Source: Watersipora subatra (taxonomy: Eukaryota; Bryozoa; Gymnolaemata; Cheilostomatida; Watersiporidae). From it: a stretch of DNA of 64,000 bases. Below the pieces are notes generated by a model. The model was not told where the DNA came from. It did not search any database and saw only the letters and a program-made list of their open reading frames with translations. Below are positions 7,469 to 62,772 of this stretch, one piece after another. The translations under genes were made by a program, and so were the position numbers. The stretch's first letter is position 1, and each line of letters opens with the position of its first letter. The stretch spans positions 61,412,228-61,476,227 of the forward strand of contig NC_088716.1 of assembly GCF_963576615.1 (NCBI RefSeq), read 5' to 3'.

Positions 7469-9290
7469 GTACTTCAAGAGAGAAACAAAGACATGATGAT
7501 TACTACAGTCATCACCTGCTTCCTGATAGCCTGTGCTCAGGGAATTCAACAAGATCTTAACCATAGAGTCTGTGATATGAACAGGAAGCAGTGCATAGAG
7601 AATTACAACCCTGATCAATGCTTGAAAGTATACAGTTTCTTTTCTGGAGAGGATGCCTTTTCCTGTGGAGAAGTCTGTGGCACTAACTATCACAAACAAC
7701 TATGCAATCTTTGTCCAAGTAAGTTAACACCTAACTTGTTAGATATACAACTAACCACTAAAAGCCTTATAGAACATCTAGCAGAAGATCTGACCATTTC
7801 TTACAAAAGCTTTATCAGATAACTCTATCTAATAATCTTAAAAACCAAGCTATATAAAACTGTATGAGAAAACAGAGAGTAGGTTTGTTTAAAACTGGAG
7901 AGTGGTTATCCACAAAGGGTGTGGTTGAAACTAGACAATGTTAATCATTGGCTAAATGCCTGTGTACTTCAGGGTTAGGTAGGGCCATAGTAGGTGAGTA
8001 GACACTCAAGTCTCTGGGTTATTTCTAGCAGACCTGTGTGTTTGTGAGTCTCTTGCTCTATCCTTATGACAAGTTTTGGTTGATGAAATAAAACAACTTA
8101 CATAAAGGAATAGATGCACCCTCTGGTAACACTTTTTAACCTTGTGACAATGCTGAATATCATAGATGTATTTCCACCCACAGTTTTAAGTCCATAGCTG
8201 AGTATCAATAGAATCAGACGCTGCTAGAGTTATTCATCCATAGATGTATTTCCGACATTGATGTTATCGCTGGCTGTCTTATGCTATGTTTACATGCAGA
8301 GTTTGAGTACAATAGCTAACAATCATTAGTCTCTATGAAACTGAATGTTTGTTTCAGAGGAGTTTGTAGCGCTGAATAAAACCTGTACAGATGGTACAAT
8401 ACAAGCCTCTGCACAAACTCAATCAACAACCACAGTTATTCCTCTAACAGTATTGAGAACTACTCTGTTTATAACCAGAGCATCAACCGTCATAGACAAC
8501 ACCACAGCTGCTAAGTCTGCGACAAATGAAAACAAGACACCAGTAATAAGAGGACTCACCATTGGCTTGGCTGTAGGGGGAGTGTTGCTAGTCGCAATTG
8601 TCACAGGTGTCATCATCTTACACCGCAAGCAAAAAGTTAAACAGAAGACTGCCGCTAAACAAAGGAATGACGGTGTACCACTAAATCGCATGGTTAGTTT
8701 CTTTGATACTGGCTAGTACTATGACAATTGGAATACATCTAAAATCCTAGTAATTCTAGTAATTTTAATACATAGTAATTCTCATGAGGTCTGATGTGAT
8801 ATCAGTATGCAGCATGACTAGTTGTACAGTCCATATATTTAGTAACTCTCATGAGGTTTGATGTGATACCAGTATACAGTATGACAAGTTGTACAGTCCA
8901 TATATTTAGTAATTCTCATGAGGTCTGATGTGATATCAGTATGCAGTATGAGTAGCTGTACAGTTCATATATTTAGTAATTCTCGTGAGGTCTGATATGT
9001 TATCAGTATGCAGTATGACTAGCTGTACAGTCAATTTATCTTTGTGAGATTTTGTTAGGAAAATTTCCGAGATTCTGTGAGACTTTGTGAGACTTTGTTA
9101 AGAGAATTGGTGAGATTTTGTGAGACTTTGTGATACTACTGTATATGTGAGTATATACATACTCTCGCATACTTTTTTAAGACCGTACTAGAAAAGTTAA
9201 TATTTCCTTATTATAATTTGGCAGGAGAATCAAGGACTGCCTTTATATCAATCTCCAACCAGTGATCCGGACCCAGACAGCCCGGTCTAG
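7469..9290 (+). CDS. Copy 2 of tandem family: intact three-exon type I membrane protein
   Basis: Coding exons are 7493-7718, 8358-8692 and 9225-9290. Together they make 627 nt, or 208 residues plus stop. The 5' exon begins after acceptor TGCCTCAG, and ATG ATG at 7493 opens a signal peptide ([17 protein letters not shown]). A roughly 55-residue ectodomain with seven cysteines follows (VCDMNRKQC ... [13 protein letters not shown]). Intron 1 is phase 1 (CCAA|GTAAGT to TTTCAG|AGGAG). Exon 2 gives a Thr/Ser-rich stalk with N-glycosylation sequons, a membrane span ([20 protein letters not shown]) and a basic tail. Intron 2 is phase 0 (ATG|GTTAGT to TTGGCAG|GAG). Exon 3 encodes [20 protein letters not shown] plus V. 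A surface receptor or ligand-binding role is inferred from layout only. The ectodomain is too short and divergent to place in a named family by eye. It has lost one Cys that copy 3 keeps. Confidence 0.8.
8773..9040. repeat. 67-bp minisatellite, 4 copies, intron 2 of copy 2
   Basis: Units start at 8773, 8840, 8907 and 8974 with TAGTAATTCTCATGAGGTCT. They continue through GATATCAGTATGCAGTATGA and end near the next TATATTTAG. The same unit occurs about once in copy 1 (from 1786) and eight times in copy 3 (17771-18306). Confidence 0.95.
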
Positions 9291-13846: not shown

Positions 13847-15236
13847 GTACTTCAAGAGAGGAACAGATACATGAACGTGATGCTCACTGCAGTCATCACC
13901 TGCTTCTTGATAGCCTGTGCTCAAGCCATTCAACAAGAGCTTAGCCATATAGTCTGTGACATGAATTGGAAGCAGTGCATAGAGAGCTACAACCCCGATC
14001 AATGCATAAAAGTATGCAACATCTTTTCTGGAGATGATGTCTTTTCCTGTGGAGAAGTCTGTGGTACTAAATATCATAAACAACTATGCAATAAATGTCC
14101 AAGTAAGTCAACACCATATGACTAACCACTAAAAGCCTTATAGAAGATCTAGCAGAGGATCTTACTATGTTTTACAAAGGCTGTATCAGATAACTCTACC
14201 TAATAATCTTAAAAACCAAGCTATAAAAGTGTATAAGAGAACAGAGAATAGGATTGTTTAAAACTGGGGAGTGGCTATCCACAAAGGGTGTAATCGAAAC
14301 TAGGCAATGTTAATCATTGGCTAAATGCCTGTGTACTTCAGGGTTAGGTAATGCTAAAATAGGTGAGTTTCTGGGTTCTTTCTAGCTGACCGGTGTGTCT
14401 GAGAGCTTCTGGGTTCTTTCTAGCTGACCAGTGTGTCTGTGAGTTTCTGGGTTCTTTCTAGCTGACCAGTGTGTCTGTGAGTTTCTGGGTTCTTTCTAGC
14501 TGACCAGTGTGTATGTGAGTCTCTCACTCTATTCTTATAACAAGTTTGTATTGATGAAGTAAAACTACTTCACTTGCAAAAAAGCATATATGTTGTCTCT
14601 GGTAAGACTTTTTAACCCTGTGACAAAGCTGAATACCATAGATGTACTTCCTGCCACAATTTGAAATTCATAGCAGAGTATCAATAGAATCAGGCGCTGC
14701 TAGAGCTATGCATCCATAAATGTAATTCTGTCATAGTTGTTATCGTAGGCTGTCTTATGTTATGTTTACATGCATAGTTTGAGTACAATAGCTAACAATG
14801 GTTAGTCTCTATGAAACTGATTGTTTGTTTTAGAGGAGTTTGTGGCGCTAAATAAAACCTGTGAAGATGATATAACACACGCTTCTTCACAAACACACTC
14901 AACAACCACAGTTACTCCTCTAACAGTATTGAGAACTATTCTGTTTATAACTAAAGCATCTACTGCCATAGACAACACCTCAGCTGCTGAGTCCGTGACA
15001 AATGAAAACAAGACACCAGTGGTAACAGGACTCATCATTACCTTGGTTGTAGAAGGATTGATAATAGTCGGATTTATCATTGGTATCATCATTTATTGTT
15101 GGAAGTGACAAGCTAAACGAAGGAATGTAGATGTGCAACTAACTGACGAGGTTAGTTCCTTTGATATGGGCTAGTACTAGGAGTATTGGGATACATCTAA
15201 AATTTCTCATGAGGTCCGATATGATATCAGATATAC

Positions 15237-15334
<98 letters not shown>

Positions 15335-15862
15335 TACAGACAGTACTGTTTCGGCTATTGAAGCCTCATCAGTGCAGCTCAGAGCTTAGGCAAGGGACAC
15401 AAATCCCATTACCAATGAGAGTTGACTTTCTGCCACGAAACAACTAAGTTGCCTCGCAGACTTTAAGAAAGTCAATGTGCTGGCACCAGAGTGCTCAAAT
15501 CACAAAAGTGATGAGCTTTGCACAAAGGCTAATAGTGCCGCACCTCTCACAGAGTGCTCAACCAAACCGAAGTAAGGGAGCATATACTCATGCTACAGAC
15601 AGTACTGTTTCGGCTATTGAAGCCTCATCAGCGCAGCTCAGAGCTTAGGCAAGGGACACAAATCCCATTACCAATGAGAGTTGACTTCCTGCCACGAAAC
15701 AACTAAGTTGCCTCGCAGACTTTAAGAAAGTCAATGTGCTGGCACCAGAGTGCTCAAATCACAAAAGTGATGAGCTTTGCACAAAGGCTAATAGTGCCGC
15801 ACCTCTCACAGAGTGCTCAACCAAACCGAAGTAAGGGAGCATATACTCATATATAGCATATG

Positions 15863-15915
<53 letters not shown>

Positions 15916-17339
15916 ATATATATATACATATATATGTATATATATACATATATATGTATATATATACATATATATATATATACATATATATATTATATAT
16001 ATATATAAAATTGTTTCCTCACCCCGGATACCCCGTATGGGTGGTAAATTCTGCTCTAACTCGGGTCTCCTACCAGAGACCTGGGAGTTTGAGCACTCGC
16101 CTCAAGATCTTAGCTGTTCCCAATGGCGCACTTTTCTGCAACTCACCTGAGTTGATTGTTGTTGGTATTTGGGCAAGCCACATTTTATGCGCCGGTGTTA
16201 TTGCGCCCAGTGCCCCAATGACTACTGGGATTACAGTTGTTCTTACATTCCAGCATTTTTCAATTTCTTCTCCAAGAGGGAGATATTTCTCTACCTTTTC
16301 TTTTTCTTTGCTGGCTATATTGTAGTCATTGGGTACTGCTATATCTATTATAGTAGCCCTCTTGTTCTCCTTGTCTACCACCACTATATCTGGCTGGTTT
16401 GCTAGGACATGCTTGTCAGTTTGGATGTAGAAGTCCCAGAGGATCTTAGCGCGGTCATTTTCATTCACCTTACCAGGAGCTTCCCACCAGTGTTGTGGTT
16501 TATTAAGGCCATACTCATCACATAGACTTCTATACACAATACCTGCGACATGATTATGCCGCTCAGTGTATGCGTTCCCTGCTAGCTGCCTGCATCCACT
16601 GATGATGTGTTGGATGGTCTCAGGTGCATCTTTGCACAGTCTGCATCTAGGATCGTCTCTAGTGTTATAGATTTTCGTTTGGAGTTGCCTTGTTGGGAGC
16701 ACTTGCTCCTGGGCTGCCATGATTAGCGACTCTGTATTGGCCATTAGGTTTCCTTTGTTCAGCCACATATATGTCTGGTGAAGATCGCCAACCTTAGATA
16801 TTTGTTGGTGGTAAGCACCATGAAGAGGTTTCGTGTGCCAGTCAATTTCCTCATCATCAGGGCGTAGGTCCATTGTAAGAGCAGCCGATTGAAATTCAGC
16901 TAGCAACTTATCTGAGATGGCCATGGAGGCTGCATATGATTTGATGCTTTGCTCCTCCTCTTTCACTGTCTGCTGTACACTTTTGAGTCCCCTACCGCCA
17001 TCTTTCCTATCAAGATACAATCTAGTAGTATCAGATTTTGGGTGGAGTGCTCCATGCATGGTCAGCAGTTTATGAGTTGCTATATCTGTTTCTTTGATGG
17101 CTTCCTCAGTCCACTTTATTATGCCTGCTGGATATCTTATTACTGGCAGTGCGTAGGTATTTATTGCCATGATTTGGTTCTTGGCATTGAGCTGGCTCCG
17201 TAGGACCTGCCGAAGGCGTTTCTTGTATTCGGTAATGGCTTTGTGACGTACCTGGGCTTCGTGGTTGATGTTGCTTTGCATAATCCCCAAGTACTTGTAC
17301 CCTTCTTCTATATCTTTGATGGTACCATTTGGCATTTGG

Positions 17340-17428
<89 letters not shown>

Positions 17429-17687: not shown

Positions 17688-17773
<86 letters not shown>

Positions 17774-18459
17774 TAATTCTCATGAGATCTGATGTGATAT
17801 CAGTGTGCAGTATGACTAGCTGTACAGTTCATATATTTAGTAATTCTCATGAGGTCTGATGTGATATCAGTATGCAGTATGACTAGCTGTACAGTCCATA
17901 TATTTAGTGATTCTCATGAGGTCTGATGTGATATCAGTATGCAGTATGACTAGCTGTGCAGTACATAAATATAGTAATTCTCATGAGATCTGATGTGATA
18001 TCAGTATGCAGTATGACTAGCTGTACAGTTCATATACTTAGTAATTCTCATGAGATCTGATGTGATATCAGTATGCAGTATGACTACTTGTACAGTCCAT
18101 ATATCTAGTAACTCTCATGAGATATGATGTGATATCAGTATGCAGTATGACTACCTGTACAGTTCATATATTTAGTAATTCTCATGAGGTCTCATGTGAT
18201 ATCAGTATGCAGTATGACAAGCTGTACAGTTCATATATTTAGTAATTCTCATGAGGTCATATGCGATATCAGTATGCAGTATGACTAGTTCTGCAGTTCA
18301 TTTATCTAGTACTAGACCTTATTAGAAAAGTTGACATTTCTTTATAATAATGTTGAGACCGTACTGAAAAAATCAAAACTTTCTATAATAATGTTGTAGG
18401 AAACTCATAGACTGCCTTTACATGAATCTTCAACCAGTGACCAGGATACACCGGTCTAA
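13847..18459 (+). CDS. Copy 3 of tandem family: three exons, in-frame TGA after the membrane span
   Basis: Coding exons are 13871-14102, 14834-15150 and 18400-18459 (609 nt, frame kept across phase-1 and phase-0 introns). The signal peptide is [19 protein letters not shown]. The ectodomain has eight cysteines ([30 protein letters not shown]), one more than copy 2. The stalk is Thr-rich and the span is [20 protein letters not shown], followed by IIYCWK. A TGA at 15106-15108 would end the protein at about 168 residues, yet the frame beyond it still encodes a tail like that of copy 2 and splices in frame to exon 3 ([19 protein letters not shown]). Intron 2 is swollen by retroelement insertions (15,230-17,770). 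The product is either a tail-less receptor form or a gene losing its tail. Confidence 0.7.
14365..14516. repeat. 38-bp minisatellite, 4 copies, intron 1 of copy 3
   Basis: Units begin at 14365, 14403, 14441 and 14479 and contain GAGTTTCTGGGTTCTTTCTA followed by GCTGACCAGTGTGTCTGT. Copy 2 has a single related stretch (about 8008-8050). Confidence 0.9.
15231..15330. repeat. (TA)n tract
   Basis: About 100 bp of nearly pure TA. It interrupts a 67-bp minisatellite unit of intron 2 (GATATCAG at its left edge) and abuts the hammerhead dimer at its right edge. Confidence 0.95.
15333..15378 (-). ncRNA. Hammerhead ribozyme, retrozyme unit 1
   Basis: On the minus strand, helix I pairs GCUGCA with UGUAGC. 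The core CUGAUGA is followed by helix II (GGCU, loop UCAAU, AGCC) and GAA. Helix III is ACAG/CUGU with a 2-nt loop, and the site is GUC. Cleavage is predicted between 15339 and 15338. All invariant core residues are present. The very short helix III suggests cleavage as a dimer, as in other tandem hammerheads. Confidence 0.85.
15592..15637 (-). ncRNA. Hammerhead ribozyme, retrozyme unit 2
   Basis: Exactly 259 bp from the first. The only change in the motif turns the last helix I pair into G.U (GCUGCG/UGUAGC). The core CUGAUGA..GAA and the GUC site are kept. Confidence 0.85.
15857..16006. repeat. (TA)n tract with TACA variants
   Basis: About 150 bp of TA with interspersed TATACATATATATG variants, between the hammerhead dimer and the 3' end of the truncated LINE. 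Confidence 0.95.
16007..17344 (-). mobile_element. 5'-truncated LINE with restriction-like endonuclease, inserted in TA repeat
   Basis: The segment is bounded by (TA)n on both sides. Read on the minus strand, it starts abruptly inside a reverse transcriptase thumb region and ends in a short 3' untranslated part (GAGGAAACAATTTT) that runs into TATATA. A second, much shorter fragment of the same 3' end occurs at about 62,411-62,576, again between TA tracts. LINEs with a C-terminal restriction-like endonuclease (R2, R4/Dong, NeSL groups) are typically target-specific; some Dong-type elements use TAA repeats. A TA-repeat preference is my inference from these two copies. Confidence 0.8.
16070..17335 (-). 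CDS. C-terminal part of LINE polyprotein: RT thumb, CCHC finger, PD-(D/E)XK endonuclease
   Basis: The frame is 421 residues, uninterrupted to its natural end (VLKLPGLW). It opens with the thumb-like region ([10 protein letters not shown], residues 12-21). A zinc knuckle follows at C231-C234-H243-C248 ([10 protein letters not shown], then IQHIISGC), and a restriction-like endonuclease core at 315-350 ([20 protein letters not shown], downstream Lys residues). The fingers and palm of the reverse transcriptase, including the YADD box, are missing because of 5' truncation. The frame is intact, so insertion is probably recent. The first ATG is internal to the parent protein and is not a real start. 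Confidence 0.85.
17345..17421. repeat. (TA)n tract
   Basis: Nearly pure TA between the truncated end of the LINE and the hammerhead palindrome. Confidence 0.95.
17464..17516 (-). ncRNA. Hammerhead ribozyme, left arm of palindrome
   Basis: Exact mirror of the right-arm motif at 17533-17585, read on the minus strand. Cleavage is predicted after GUA. Confidence 0.7.
17533..17585 (+). ncRNA. Hammerhead ribozyme, right arm of palindrome
   Basis: Helix I is a perfect 8-bp pair (CAUUUUAU with AUAAAAUG). The core CUGAAGA fits CUGANGA. Helix II is GUGC/GCAC with a 9-nt loop, followed by GAA. Helix III is ACUU/AAGU, and the site is GUA. Cleavage is predicted between 17577 and 17578. It is distinct in helix sequence from the 15.3-kb hammerheads. 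Confidence 0.75.
17692..17770. repeat. (TA)n tract
   Basis: Pure TA closing the retroelement cluster. The 67-bp minisatellite of intron 2 resumes immediately after it. Confidence 0.95.
17771..18306. repeat. 67-bp minisatellite, 8 copies, intron 2 of copy 3
   Basis: Units start at 17771 and every 67 bp to 18240 (TAGTAATTCTCATGAGATCT). It is the same unit as at 8773-9040. Copy number across the three gene copies is about 1, 4 and 8. Confidence 0.95.
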
Positions 18460-22602: not shown

Positions 22603-22738
22603 CGCATGCTGACCCGGTCCGCATGCTGACCCAGTCCGCATGCTGACCCGGTTCGCATGCTGACCCGGTCCGCATGCTGACCCGGTTCGCATGCTGACCC
22701 GGTCCGCATGCTGACCCAGTCCGTATGCTGACCCGGTC
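22603..22738. repeat. 17-bp minisatellite, 8 copies
   Basis: Eight head-to-tail units of CGCATGCTGACCCGGTC with GGTC/GGTT/AGTC variants. It is GC-rich against an AT-rich surround. Open frames of the type GQHADRVSM on the minus strand are artefacts of this repeat. Confidence 0.95.
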
Positions 22739-23331
22739 CGACTCGGTCTTGGCCCACACTGCTGACCCTGAGTCTGGCGCGACCCTGCATTTCTTGGTCT
22801 CATTTCAGTTCTAGCTAAGAAAGCCACTGATTCCACTTCCCTGATCAGATCGAAACTTCACAGGTCCATCATATTCAGTCATGTTTAGTTCAGCATGATA
22901 CTAGTCTTTTACCTAGCCAGGGTCTGGCTCTTCAGGTAGGTGGGCTATTTGCCCCGCTCTCCTTTCCCCCTTCTCTCTTTTCCCCTTCTCACTTCTTCTT
23001 TGGAGAAGGGAAAAAGAGAGAATGGGGATAGGAGAGGGTGGCAAATAAAGCCCTGTTGGCTCATGATTTTTGTGCAACAATTCATAGCTTTTATAGTTTT
23101 AATGTATGGTGGTTATCAGATATTATCACAGAACCGCTTTAGTTTACTGGATTATGTATCCAAGAAAGTTTTTATGTGAAAATAAATGTGGTTTTGTCAC
23201 CTTCTCCTCATAAGCTCCATTGTAAGTAACAGTGCAGTCAAGCATTAGGTACAATACAATGACGTAACGTCATGCTATTTAAATCTGACAGGCTTTCTCC
23301 CTATTGGCCAATCTAGGTTTATATATCTATG

Positions 23332-31395: not shown

Positions 31396-32159
31396 GTTCG
31401 ACTATTCATGTCTGAGTTGCGATCATAAAAAATGTCAAATTCTGAAGAGTTAAGACCCTGGCGTTTCGAGCCTGACGCTCTATCTGAAGAAAATCCTCAA
31501 CAGAATAAAACCTCCTAGCAAGTAAGCACCGCCACTAGCCAGCTCTTATGTGCCAAGCTAGCTAGTAGTAATAGTTTTAGCTTGAGAGTGATAGAACGAA
31601 TATTATTATATATGATTTTAATGATGATAATTATCGCTTCAATATTGCGAAAAAATAATTACAGATTTTTCTCGAATGACAACATTAACAATTTTAATAT
31701 TTAAATCTAGTGCTGCACTGATATACTGTTGGATAACATCGACCTGATGTATTAGCTATGGTTGCATAGACATATCTGTTCATTTGGACTTCATTTGTTC
31801 AAAGTGGACTTCCGGTGTCATGGTGGACGGACGCGCTTTTTTGCCAAAAATACTTCTCTCACAAAAAATTACTGAATTCCTTACAGCACACAGCTCTACA
31901 TCATCAAAGAAGGCTTGCATCAGGGCTTGAGTAGGGGCCCAAGCATCTCTAGGCACCAGGAGCTAGACTCCGTCTGCGTAGATTGAGCCTTTGCTGGGTT
32001 GTCTTAGATGCCAGCTGAGTCTTGGTGATCTGCCATTGCTTACCATTGTTCAGGACAAATTGATTATTTTCTTTATTTATTTCCCATTTTATTAATAATT
32101 TTCTTTTGTCTTGTAAAATTTAATCACTTGTGTACTAATCATCTCTGTAAAAACTGAAA

Positions 32160-33095
32160 ATGCCTGTTAAAGTAAAAGATGCAAAAGATAAACCAAGATC
32201 GAACAGCGCATCCAGTGCTGATTCATCTCTGACTCATAGACGGGACTCTAGAAGGAGCTCCAACAAACTGCATCACTGTAAAATATGCAGCAAAATCATT
32301 ACTGACGCCTCTGAACCTGCTATTGAATGTGAGAAATGCTTAGCGTGGCTGCATGCGAAATGCGTGGCTCTTGATAAAGGTGACCTGATCACGGCCGGGA
32401 AGAAGGGGTTTCATTGGTACTGTAATGATTGTGACTCGGTCCAAGATTTATTTACTGCCAAAGTTAACACTATTGAGGACCGGCTAGAAGAGTCTATTCT
32501 TAGAATTGCCGAGTCGCTTGACTCTAGAATGGAAAACATTGAAACCCAAGTTAGAGAGCAGTTTCAAACGCAGTCTCAAAAACACGAACAAACGTATGCC
32601 CAGATAGTCCAAAAAGTCGACCAGTCTACAAGTGTGCTAAACAATCAGTTAAGAGTACAAGAAGTTCAAATGCAATCTCTCAAAACCGAAATCACCAGCG
32701 AATCCCGTGCTAAAAATGTCATTATTTTTGGAGTGGAAGAGGATAGGGACACTACTCTCGAGGCATCTATCGAGAGACTGTCCGACCTCTTTAGATCGGC
32801 GAGTCTCAACGTGGAGGTGTCAAAGTCAAACACCACCCGTTTAGGTGTTAAAAAAGAGAGCAAATTCAGACCTATTAGAGTGTGCTTGTCTTCTGAAACT
32901 CAGAAATGGGACTTATTGAAAAGAATCAATGCACAAAAAATAACTGGAGTTTTTGCTCGCCTTGATTTGAATAAAGAAGAGCAAGAGAGGGATTTTCTTC
33001 TAAGAAAGGAGTTAAGGGAGCAGAGAGATCAGGACCCGGAAAACAATTACAAGATTTTCAACAGCAAAATAATAAAGACAGGCCCCAAGATTTAA
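32160..33095 (+). CDS. LINE ORF1 protein with PHD-type zinc finger
   Basis: 311 residues from ATG. After a basic, Ser-rich leader (residues 1-37) comes a PHD-like finger (CKICSKIITDASEPAIECEK then CLAWLHAKC, ending WYCNDC) at about 39-93. A Gln/Glu-rich coiled-coil region follows (about 100-180), then an RNA-binding-like region with RAKNVIIFGVEED at about 182 and RPIRVCLSSETQ. This layout is typical of ORF1 proteins of CR1/L2-type LINEs, which bind the element RNA. Confidence 0.8.
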   Translation: MPVKVKDAKDKPRSNSASSADSSLTHRRDSRRSSNKLHHCKICSKIITDASEPAIECEKCLAWLHAKCVALDKGDLITAGKKGFHWYCNDCDSVQDLFTAKVNTIEDRLEESILRIAESLDSRMENIETQVREQFQTQSQKHEQTYAQIVQKVDQSTSVLNNQLRVQEVQMQSLKTEITSESRAKNVIIFGVEEDRDTTLEASIERLSDLFRSASLNVEVSKSNTTRLGVKKESKFRPIRVCLSSETQKWDLLKRINAQKITGVFARLDLNKEEQERDFLLRKELREQRDQDPENNYKIFNSKIIKTGPKI

Positions 33096-33124
33096 AGTTA
33101 TCAGATCAAATCAGACTCCTTTCT

Positions 33125-35854
33125 GTGAATTCCCGATCTATAAAAGGAAAGCTCACCGAAATCCAAGCTCTTTCTTCAGAATATGATATAATATGTATCA
33201 CTGAAACACACATAGATAAATCATTTTTAAATAATCAACTTTTCCTTCCAAATGATAAGTTAATTTACAGAAGGGATAGAGATGATCACGGGGGCGGAGT
33301 TCTCATAGCTGTGAAAACTGATATATCTCACAAAATCGTTGCCACAACTGTTGATGCAGAAATAGTATCAGTTGCTTTCCAAATACATGAAAAACAATTT
33401 TGTACTTTATTATGTTACTACCGACCTCCTACCAAAAACAGTATTGATGATCTTTTCTCTCACATACATAAGCTCAAACAAACATACCCAGCAAACAAAT
33501 TACTAGTCGTTGGTGATTTCAATTTGCCAGGCATAGACTGGAAACAAAAGGTTATAGTTGGGGCAAACCGGTCCCACTACAAAGACTTCCTTGACAATTT
33601 ATTTGACTTACAACTTGACCAGCTAATAACTGATCCCACTCATGTGGCTGGAAACACGTTAGACTTGGTATGTACAGACCTGTCTTACCGAATAACGAAT
33701 ACAAGCGTCATACAGCCTGGTCTTAGTGACCACTATATGATCGAAATAAACATATCCACTTCGCAGACAGCGGAACTTCAAAACAATGTAGACCTACCTC
33801 CTATTAGACTGTTCAAGCAAGTTGACTTGCCCAATTTTGAGAAGTCGCTAGCTGCAATTCACAAACGGGTAACGGAGTGTATAGGCATTGGAGGTACCAT
33901 AGACAACGTTTGGAACATTTTTAAACTTGGCTTACATAATGCAATAAATGATCATGTTCCTACCAGACAAAGACAGCCTAAAAGGCCAAACGAACCACTC
34001 TGGTTTAATAAATCTGCAAAGCGTGCATGTAACAAGCAACGTAAGTTATACTCCTTGTATAAGAAAAAAGGAGACAGTGAATTACTTAATAAATACAAAC
34101 AACTACGTCGAAGTAACAAAAAGTTATTTAAAAACCTCAAAAAAGACTACATGACCAATAGACTATACAATCCACTGGTAGAGGGTGACACCAAACCCTT
34201 CTATAGATATATAAAAGAATTAAAAGGAAATGCAAACAAAATTGTGTCGATGGAACAAGACAATGGAGTATTGACTGAAAATGATTATGAAACTGCTAAT
34301 ATACTAAATTCTTTTTTTCAGAGCGTCTTCTCGAAACCTTCCCCTCTACCTACACTGCCATTTATTGCCGATCCCCAAAATATTTCGATCTCAACCAACG
34401 GAGTATTAAAATTAATAGATAACCTGAAAACTGGTAAGGCCGCAGGCCCAGACAAGATTGGAAAAAATCAACTCACTTTAGACCCCGAAGGAACAGCCGC
34501 TATTTTGACGAGCATATTTGACTATTCACTTCAAACAGGTACCTTGCCCGAAGAATGGAAAATTGCCCACGTGACTCCTATTTATAAACAAGGTAGTCGA
34601 ACTTCACCATCCAATTATCGCCCCATTTCTCTAACTTGTATATGCTGTAAATTATTGGAACATATAATCGTTCACCAGCTAAATGCGCAGCTTACAAACA
34701 AAATTTCCTCAAACCAGCACGGCTTCAGAAAAAGTCTCTCGTGTTGTACCCAACTGATAACAGTAAACCATGACATACTCAAATTTAATGACTCCGGATC
34801 CATTGTACACGCAGCCATTTTAGATTTCTCTAAAGCGTTCGATGTAGTAAATCATAGCAAACTCCTAACTAAGCTTATAGGCTTCGGTATAAATCCCATA
34901 CTTATACGTTGGATAGCATCCTTCCTCAAAGGTAGGTCTCAGCGAGTTCTGGTAGGAGGTATGATGTCGGATCCAGTACAGGTCACATCAGGAGTCCCGC
35001 AGGGGAGCGTGCTAGGCCCTACTCTGTTCATCTTGTTTATAAATGATATAGTTGACTGTGTTGTCAATAGTTCTATACGCCTCTTTGCCGATGATACTCT
35101 AGTATATCACCCTATTACAGACTCGAACGACATGACACTATTACAAACTGACCTCGATAACCTATTTCAATGGGGACAGTCCAATGGTATGTTATTTAAC
35201 GCCAAAAAGAGCACTATTGTTTCATTCGGGAAAACCTCTCTTACAGACAAATACCTCATAAATTACCATCTCGGGAACACCCCTTTAATCACATGTGACA
35301 CTGTAAAATACCTTGGTGTGTACCTTTCAAAAGACAACAAGTGGAATAGACATATTGAATATATTTGTATGAAAGCATCACGCATCCTTGGATTGTTAAA
35401 AAATACTATTAGTGATGCCCCAGTCGCAGTGAAATTGATTGCTTATAAGCAGCTGTGTCGACCTGTTCTTGAATACGCAGCCGAGGTCTGGGACCCTCAT
35501 ACAGCCACGCATTCCGACATGCTGGAACGCATACAAAATAAAGCTGTGAGGTTCATTAAAAATATTAAAGGCAGAGATGTGTCCGTCTCAGAAGAAAAAT
35601 TCATGTGTGGCTTAAAGTCTTTAAAACACAGAAGACAGCAACAGAGATTGTCTTTGTACATTAATATCGTATCAAACAAAGATACGTTTCCATCCATCCA
35701 TGACACACTGACCGAAATGAACGCATCTACTCACTACATGACCACACGTTCTAACAATCTAAACGCCCTTTCCTGTGACTCTGGTCAGTTTTTGCAGGGA
35801 TTCATTCTCAGGACATCTCGGGAAATCCGCACTGGGGAGATTGTAGCGGACTAA
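33125..35854 (+). CDS. LINE ORF2: APE endonuclease and reverse transcriptase
   Basis: 909 residues counted from a GTG; the frame is open from 32975 and overlaps the end of ORF1 by about 120 nt in the -1 frame. Endonuclease motifs are VNSRSI at the start, ITETHID, VVGDFNLPGIDW (about residue 130) and GLSDHYMI (about 200). Reverse transcriptase motifs are LDFSKAFDVVNH, GVPQGSVLGPTLF and FADDTLVYH (about 654). It ends in a CR1-like thumb and C-terminus without an RNase H domain. No ATG exists before the endonuclease, so expression must use reinitiation, frameshifting or a non-AUG start. Confidence 0.9.
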   Translation: MNSRSIKGKLTEIQALSSEYDIICITETHIDKSFLNNQLFLPNDKLIYRRDRDDHGGGVLIAVKTDISHKIVATTVDAEIVSVAFQIHEKQFCTLLCYYRPPTKNSIDDLFSHIHKLKQTYPANKLLVVGDFNLPGIDWKQKVIVGANRSHYKDFLDNLFDLQLDQLITDPTHVAGNTLDLVCTDLSYRITNTSVIQPGLSDHYMIEINISTSQTAELQNNVDLPPIRLFKQVDLPNFEKSLAAIHKRVTECIGIGGTIDNVWNIFKLGLHNAINDHVPTRQRQPKRPNEPLWFNKSAKRACNKQRKLYSLYKKKGDSELLNKYKQLRRSNKKLFKNLKKDYMTNRLYNPLVEGDTKPFYRYIKELKGNANKIVSMEQDNGVLTENDYETANILNSFFQSVFSKPSPLPTLPFIADPQNISISTNGVLKLIDNLKTGKAAGPDKIGKNQLTLDPEGTAAILTSIFDYSLQTGTLPEEWKIAHVTPIYKQGSRTSPSNYRPISLTCICCKLLEHIIVHQLNAQLTNKISSNQHGFRKSLSCCTQLITVNHDILKFNDSGSIVHAAILDFSKAFDVVNHSKLLTKLIGFGINPILIRWIASFLKGRSQRVLVGGMMSDPVQVTSGVPQGSVLGPTLFILFINDIVDCVVNSSIRLFADDTLVYHPITDSNDMTLLQTDLDNLFQWGQSNGMLFNAKKSTIVSFGKTSLTDKYLINYHLGNTPLITCDTVKYLGVYLSKDNKWNRHIEYICMKASRILGLLKNTISDAPVAVKLIAYKQLCRPVLEYAAEVWDPHTATHSDMLERIQNKAVRFIKNIKGRDVSVSEEKFMCGLKSLKHRRQQQRLSLYINIVSNKDTFPSIHDTLTEMNASTHYMTTRSNNLNALSCDSGQFLQGFILRTSREIRTGEIVAD

Positions 35855-61332: not shown

Positions 61333-61368
<36 letters not shown>

Positions 61369-61375: not shown

Positions 61376-61641
61376 AGCATGAGTATATGCTCCCTTACTT
61401 CGGTTTGGTTGAGCACTCTGTGAGAGGTGCGGCACTATTAGCCTTTGTGCAAAGCTCATCACTTTTGTGATTTGAGCACTCTGGTGCCAGCACATTGACT
61501 TTCTTAAAGTCTGCGAGGCAACTTAGTTGTTTCGTGGCAGGAAGTCAACTCTCATTGGTAATGGGATTTGTGTCCCTTGCCTAAGCTCTGAGCTGCACTG
61601 ATGAGGCTTCAATAGCCGAAACAGTACTGTCTGTAGCATGA

Positions 61642-61646
<5 letters not shown>
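61376..61646 (+). mobile_element. Retrozyme-like monomer with hammerhead
   Basis: The reverse complement of the 259-bp unit at 15331-15849, present once. It begins about 4 nt downstream of the equivalent cleavage site and ends just past its own hammerhead, so it is close to one circular unit opened near the self-cleavage point. TA tracts lie on both sides. Confidence 0.8.
61592..61637 (+). ncRNA. Hammerhead ribozyme, third retrozyme unit
   Basis: GCUGCA / CUGAUGA / GGCU-UCAAU-AGCC / GAA / ACAG-UA-CUGU / C / UGUAGC: core and helices are identical to unit 1 of the dimer. Cleavage is predicted between 61631 and 61632. Confidence 0.85.
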
Positions 61647-61724
<78 letters not shown>

Positions 61725-61728
61725 CTGC

Positions 61729-61777
<49 letters not shown>
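61647..61777. repeat. (TA)n tract
   Basis: About 130 bp of TA with one GTGCTGC interruption, between the retrozyme unit and the LTR-like segment. Confidence 0.95.
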
Positions 61778-62410: not shown

Positions 62411-62576
62411 AAAAAAAATTGTTTCCACACCCGGATAGTTGATTGCTGTTGGTATTTGGGCAAGCCACATTTTATGCGCCGGTGTTATTGCGCCCAGTGC
62501 CCCAATGACTACTGGGATTACAGTTGTTCTTACATTCCAGCATTTTTCAATTTCTTCTCCAGAAAGGGAGATATTT
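62411..62576 (-). mobile_element. Second fragment of the restriction-endonuclease LINE
   Basis: Nearly identical to 16007-16030 joined to 16151-16290 of the longer copy (shared GTTGGTATTTGGGCAAGCCA and TTTTTCAATTTCTTCTCC). An internal deletion of about 120 bp lies after CCGGATA. It is 5'-truncated at AGGGAGATATTT and flanked by TA repeats on both sides. Confidence 0.85.

Positions 62577-62772
<196 letters not shown>

Follow-up and report, generated by a model that had tools for sequence, protein, structure and literature searches.

We found that the 64-kb stretch of DNA analysed here (the window) carries two insertions of what we judge, with good confidence, to be a young, non-autonomous non-LTR retrozyme, an element whose circular RNAs would be copied at (TA)n tracts into tandem arrays; this confidence extends to the element and its route, the identity of the assisting LINE being considered separately below. 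Metazoan non-LTR retrozymes are known from coral, mussel and axolotl (as described in PMC7229834). Animal retrozymes themselves are thus not new; what is new here is a fixed 3' junction, 10 nt past the end of the unit and into (TA)n. In PMC7229834 and PMC7761336, the route by which retrozyme circles return to the genome, and the enzyme that carries them, are left open. A young and numerous family with a sharp junction makes both of them testable.

The larger of the two insertions is a dimer on the minus strand. A preliminary description made from the letters had proposed a tandem pair of 259-bp units, and this was borne out by TRF (15331-15850, period 259, 2.0 copies, 99% match) and by BLAST, which places the 5' unit at 15592..15850 and the 3' unit at 15333..15591, each one site off the family majority (219A>G and 163G>A, respectively). 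Using regular expressions and pairing, we also recovered on the minus strand of both units the hammerhead core CUGAUGA...GAAA, helices I to III and the GUC site that the description had reported. On the RNA strand, the 3' end of each unit reads GCUGC(A/G)-CUGAUGA-GGCU UCAAU AGCC-GAA-ACA GUAC UGU-C^UGUAGC, with 6 bp in helix I, 4 bp in helix II and 3 bp in helix III, the last carrying a palindromic GUAC loop. The inner hammerhead (15582..15647, minus strand) is complete, with its distal helix-I strand and the UAUAU; its core-to-cleavage part is 15592-15647, and cleavage is predicted between 15598 and 15597. The outer hammerhead (15333..15388, minus strand; predicted cleavage between 15339 and 15338) is followed by ATATAT, not ATGAGT, and is without the distal helix-I strand, so that only one of the two hammerheads first described as complete is so. 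The distal helix-I stem (GCUC with GAGU) is present in the inner hammerhead and wherever ATGAGT comes after the unit. The second insertion, a monomer identical to the family majority, lies on the plus strand at 61379..61637 with (TA)n on both sides; its hammerhead spans 61582-61637, with cleavage predicted after 61631. The features of a type I hammerhead are present, namely a conserved core, three helices, an opening through helix I and an NUH site.

Covariance models matched the hammerhead in the register of its core and helices, yet every match was sub-threshold, the best reaching 23.5 bits against a gathering cut-off of 52 bits for HH9, and no Rfam family attained its gathering threshold within the 64-kb window. 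When 15200-16000 (801 bp) was scanned, the inner copy matched Hammerhead_HH9 (18.9 bits, E 0.084), and the outer copy matched Hammerhead_3 only (16.5 bits, E 2), ranking under several low-complexity TA-repeat matches. Over smaller stretches, HH9 aligned at full length with 15575-15655 (18.9 bits, E 0.0085), core and helices in register, and within 61560-61655 it matched the second copy at 61581-61653, again in register (23.5 bits, E 0.00032). Genome searches with RF00008 and RF00163 returned zero matches, and their controls were silent too. We class the element as a predicted hammerhead by its core and helices, not as a member of an Rfam family. The unit RNA is strongly self-paired (z -3.97). 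Energy folding disfavours the hammerhead (-14.7 kcal/mol for the hammerhead fold vs -18.3 kcal/mol for the MFE) and gives helix III, which is very short, a pairing probability of 0. In amphibian hammerheads, according to the account in PMC7229834, helix III is very short, its tetraloop is palindromic and the ribozymes may act as a pair; since the short helix III and palindromic loop found here recall the axolotl hammerheads that act as dimers, paired (dimeric) action is plausible. The GC content of the unit, 47.1%, is below the 50% given in the text of PMC7229834 and not below the 45% given in its legend.

The preliminary description had placed this retrozyme inside an intron of a plus-strand gene. 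The ribozymes are indeed antisense to that gene, but the dimer lies beyond its stop codon and nothing shows an intron; the animal-type retrozyme is supported, the intronic location is not. The plus-strand exon 14821-15108 ends at a TGA (15106-15108) and is paralogous to 8345-8716 (80.6% over 744 bp), the TGA falling where the paralogue stays open. The paralogue's frame would end at 15172-15174, and homology to it extends to about 15203. Because the exon's stop, the paralogue's frame end and the homology end all precede the dimer, its predicted position is in the 3' UTR or 3' flank, in antisense orientation. Each of these two tandem paralogues, coding for a putative membrane protein, has its last exon here (8345-8716 and 14821-15174, plus strand), and the TGA of the second precedes a cytoplasmic tail that the first retains. 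Pfam searches with the neighbouring plus-strand exons gave nothing above cut-off.

The family is large. The exact core pattern occurs 1210 times (601 + 609) in the 784-Mb assembly, while the backward control gave 0, and a unit search listed 114 matches from the best 40 of 1353 candidates scored. We assembled 89 arrays from 78 fetched loci and the window: 38 top-scored loci, 40 loci of the exact-core list on one contig (C1, 1.3 to 67.1 Mb) and the window itself. The C1 loci were picked by an intact core, so that they offer no fair test of core conservation, and two C1 loci already in the set were left out. The near-duplicate loci L033/L034, L052/L053 and L095/L096 were retained in all counts. 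Arrays at most 40 bp apart were merged (L054 consists of two merged insertions), except that the count of rare variants splits them into 91 runs. The divergence between units of one array is 0.41% in one sample and 0.69% in the other, and that between units of different arrays is 1.5% and 6.2%; many units of the top-scoring set equal the majority or lie one or two sites away from it, and the C1 sample is more diverse. Changes in helices I, II and III amounted to 18, 11 and 5 cells, respectively, with 6, 3 and 1 still paired, but the copies are too alike for covariation to be informative. Among the marks of a metazoan non-LTR retrozyme are tandem units of roughly 150-450 bp that all carry a type I hammerhead, and many dispersed copies; both of these were found. 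Compared with the elements in PMC7229834, and as judged from the letters, the animal-type identity is supported by the size of the unit, its type I hammerhead, its strongly self-paired RNA, the tandem arrays and the young copies scattered over the genome. The two units of the window differ by A/G on the RNA strand, and we considered RNA editing as the cause; it was rejected, as private variants show no A-to-G excess (A>G 11, T>C 25, C>T 25, G>A 12) and instead an excess at pyrimidines.

Tandem structure and similar units within arrays would likewise result if the family were a DNA satellite growing by unequal exchange, its hammerhead having no role in spread. We consider this very improbable. 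The arrays are short and dispersed, those of the best 40 of 1353 loci being spread over 11 contigs; among the 43 C1 arrays, which range from 0.2 to 6.74 units, 22 are shorter than one unit; and a 3' end in (TA)n is common to the arrays. Single arrays may still have grown in place by unequal exchange. Elsewhere in the window, TRF reported a 67-bp satellite at 8773-9039 (4.0 copies) and 17763-18311 (8.2 copies), to which a stretch immediately 5' of the TA tract of the retrozyme is related, and a GC-rich 17-bp minisatellite at 22603-22740 (8.1 copies).

The ends of the arrays hint at the retrozyme's route into the genome. In 85 of the 89 arrays the last unit extends to position 255 or beyond, and ATGAGT-like letters come next in 78 of these 85. 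In 62 of the 85 the match to a following unit stops after exactly 10 nt, ATGAGTATAT, and gives way to (TA)n. This exact junction into TA repeats recurs 629 times genome-wide (323 + 306; control 0). Tracts of (TA)n of at least 10 bp lie within 50 bp on the 3' side of 80/89 arrays, and tracts of this kind within 40 bp on the 5' side of 67/89, against a background of 141 in 19553 random 50-bp stretches of the window outside the two elements. Eleven of the 89 arrays end differently: L033 and L034 (both at position 77), L051, L059, L076, L083, L092, L099, L103, L108 and the dimer of the window. On the 3' side of the dimer, (TA)n lies at 15231..15332 (TRF). The 5' ends of the 89 arrays are variable.

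The usual 3' end lies 16 nt beyond the predicted cleavage site, so the inserts span a site that was uncut or resealed. It follows that a cleaved linear monomer could not be the template, as priming there would yield a mere stub. The templates that remain are circles or uncut multimers, of which circles appear to fit best, and the predicted 259-nt circle, which agrees with the junctions, is a sound prediction. If instead a linear transcript escaped cleavage and ran through the array into the flanking (TA)n, its UA tail could anneal to new tracts and the 3' end would simply be inherited, with no circle involved. The near-constant 3' end and the TA flanks throughout the sample would follow from such a transcript, and so would the starts of three arrays (L033, L034 and L087), which fall precisely on the cleavage site at position 254; these starts point to a cut, linear 5' end, and not a circle, in some of the templates. 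We nevertheless regard the linear transcript as unlikely, since it requires transcripts that escape cleavage at every site, and since rare variants shared by all units demand that one unit was copied repeatedly at some point in its history.

Such variants were present in every covering unit in 18 of the 55 multi-unit runs; across these runs, 25 rare variants occur in all units, 82 in one unit and 7 in some. Common variants were uniform within runs in 52 of 67 cases and mixed in 15; these mixed cases, and the preponderance of one-unit variants, count against the model. A variant confined to one unit would fit later mutation; for one carried by all units, a single unit appears to have been copied repeatedly, as would happen over laps around a circle. 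Judging from the scattered starts, copying would stop at variable points, with an apparent preferred stop at unit positions 61-75 (19/89 arrays vs 5.2 expected). A stop after one lap was considered and rejected: starts at positions 240-259 and 1-10 (30 positions) numbered 21/89 vs 10.3 expected, and TA microhomology may account for this excess near the unit boundary. Twin priming was likewise rejected. Nine close opposite-strand pairs occur in seven loci, 7/9 of them head to head, and the variants of the members differ in 6/7 loci, the pair in L065 sharing 39 bp, too short to judge; these pairs look like separate insertions into one TA tract. In L082, the 5' junction (near 1282) includes 11 bp that repeat unit positions 11-21 in inverted orientation, as though the newly made strand had doubled back.

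A neighbouring repeat is a possible source of the enzyme. A 5'-truncated LINE lies between (TA)n tracts at 16010..17344, on the same strand as the dimer and 159 bp from it, the two being separated by (TA)n at 15864..16007 (TRF); a fragment of the same LINE family, at 62437..62584 (minus strand), lies near (TA)n. The C-terminal frame of the LINE beside the dimer contains a zinc knuckle of the pattern C-X2-C-X8-H-X4-C, its first C followed by R, a spacing that satisfies the rule for RLE LINEs given in PMC5678591 (CX2-3CX7-8HX4C). The frame also matched an R2 protein weakly (E 0.0015) and zf-RVT at 7.4e-5, under its cut-off. From a different copy (L010) we read the upstream part, which encodes a reverse transcriptase (RVT_1, 1.4e-27), for which R2 proteins were the best among solved structures (1.2e-22; LINE-1 2.5e-15). 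The LINE may also encode a restriction-like endonuclease, a possible motif of which we spotted by eye. We name the element R2/R4-type, provisionally, by its R2-like reverse transcriptase and knuckle. It is abundant: apart from the window's own copy, the best 99 of 9736 candidates in a protein search are 96-98% identical, and an open frame of 1123 aa is present in 12 of these 99. A further LINE, apparently APE-type, is recognisable by eye at 32151-35854 (plus strand) from two overlapping frames (314 and 959 aa) resembling an ORF1 and an endonuclease-reverse transcriptase ORF2, with no adjoining TA tract in the TRF list.

The R2/R4-type LINE shares with the retrozyme a 3' end in (TA)n. Its 3' end, GGGGTGAGGAAACAATTTT, occurs 1549 times in the genome (769 + 780), and (TA)5 follows within 6 nt in 428 of the 769 plus-strand occurrences; the plus strand alone was used here, as the minus-strand tally contained repeats of one place. 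LINE sequence is present in 23/78 retrozyme loci, and of the 19 LINE 3' ends in the window and these loci, 16 are followed by TA repeats; among the three misses, one is cut off where its locus stops. From these flanks, (TA)n would be the LINE's target. Among the 39 retrozyme 3' ends on contig C1, four have one of 57 LINE 3' ends less than 1 kb away, compared with a mean of 0.05 and a maximum of 2 in 2000 circular shifts; both sets were selected for exact ends followed by TA, so that the proximity shows shared tracts, and a shared enzyme would be a further step. As the enzyme's likeliest source, the LINE is a tentative candidate, in our estimate a little short of an even call. The window holds seven (TA)n tracts of at least 16 bp (15237-15332, 15864-15912, 17345-17424, 17692-17770, 61333-61364, 61643-61777 and 62661-62769), six of which adjoin a retrozyme or LINE piece; perhaps the elements help to make or lengthen them. 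The retrozyme family also suggests a role for (TA)n tracts as landing sites shared by two kinds of element.

The same retrozyme could instead be moved by Penelope-like elements or Terminons, which have hammerheads of their own. These are the mobilisers favoured for retrozymes in PMC7229834 and PMC7761336, and the Penelope-like enzyme, as characterised in PMC11167929, cleaves AT-rich DNA, with both strands opened, and begins copying at an internal point of its RNA; such behaviour would agree with a start within the unit at (TA)n. Our searches covered the endonuclease side of these elements, with a GIY-YIG profile (PF01541) and a Penelope-like endonuclease query. The profile had one match in the genome, a 92-aa frame resembling SLX1, and the query had zero, in both cases in searches with no Penelope-like positive control. 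We regard mobilisation by these elements as a serious possibility that falls short of being probable.

Our model suggests the following sequence of events. Transcripts of tandem units would cut themselves at the hammerhead, and a host ligase, as the literature on such circles leads us to expect, would close the 259-nt monomers. Judging from the junctions, an enzyme that opens (TA)n would then let the TA-rich end prime on UAUAU, at unit positions 6-10 immediately 3' of the hammerhead. The circle would be copied, sometimes for several laps, with stops at variable points. The outcome would be arrays such as those sampled, whose 3' end is fixed in (TA)n, whose 5' end varies and whose units are nearly identical. 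The enzyme would come most readily from the abundant R2/R4-type LINE. Taken further, the model would mean that animal-type retrozymes can parasitise an R2/R4-type LINE and not Penelope-like elements, the UA site priming and the laps building an array in one step, a reading that we put forward as possible, though doubtful. The start point within TA repeats, shared by most of the copies examined, hints at the copying-back route and at the neighbouring element responsible.

For retrozymes, our searches of the open-licence literature turned up neither a (TA)n target nor an RLE-LINE partner. The individual parts have counterparts in known systems. Like the metazoan retrozymes in PMC7229834, the family consists of tandem units that are a few hundred bp long and all carry a type I hammerhead, and it is dispersed and noncoding, with strongly self-paired RNA; unlike them, as described there, it has a sharp (TA)n 3' junction and is found together with an R2/R4-type LINE. 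Its helix III, very short and capped by a palindromic tetraloop, is like that of the newt and axolotl hammerhead repeats, although its unit is 259 bp, compared with about 330-350 bp in those repeats. A type I hammerhead, tandem copies, AT-rich targets and an internal start of copying are also found in the hammerhead-bearing Penelope-like elements as presented in PMC11167929; in contrast to these, the retrozyme has no protein-coding unit. Finally, its neighbour resembles the RLE LINEs with microsatellite targets, as they appear in PMC4640811 and PMC5678591, in its R2-like reverse transcriptase, its knuckle and its microsatellite end.
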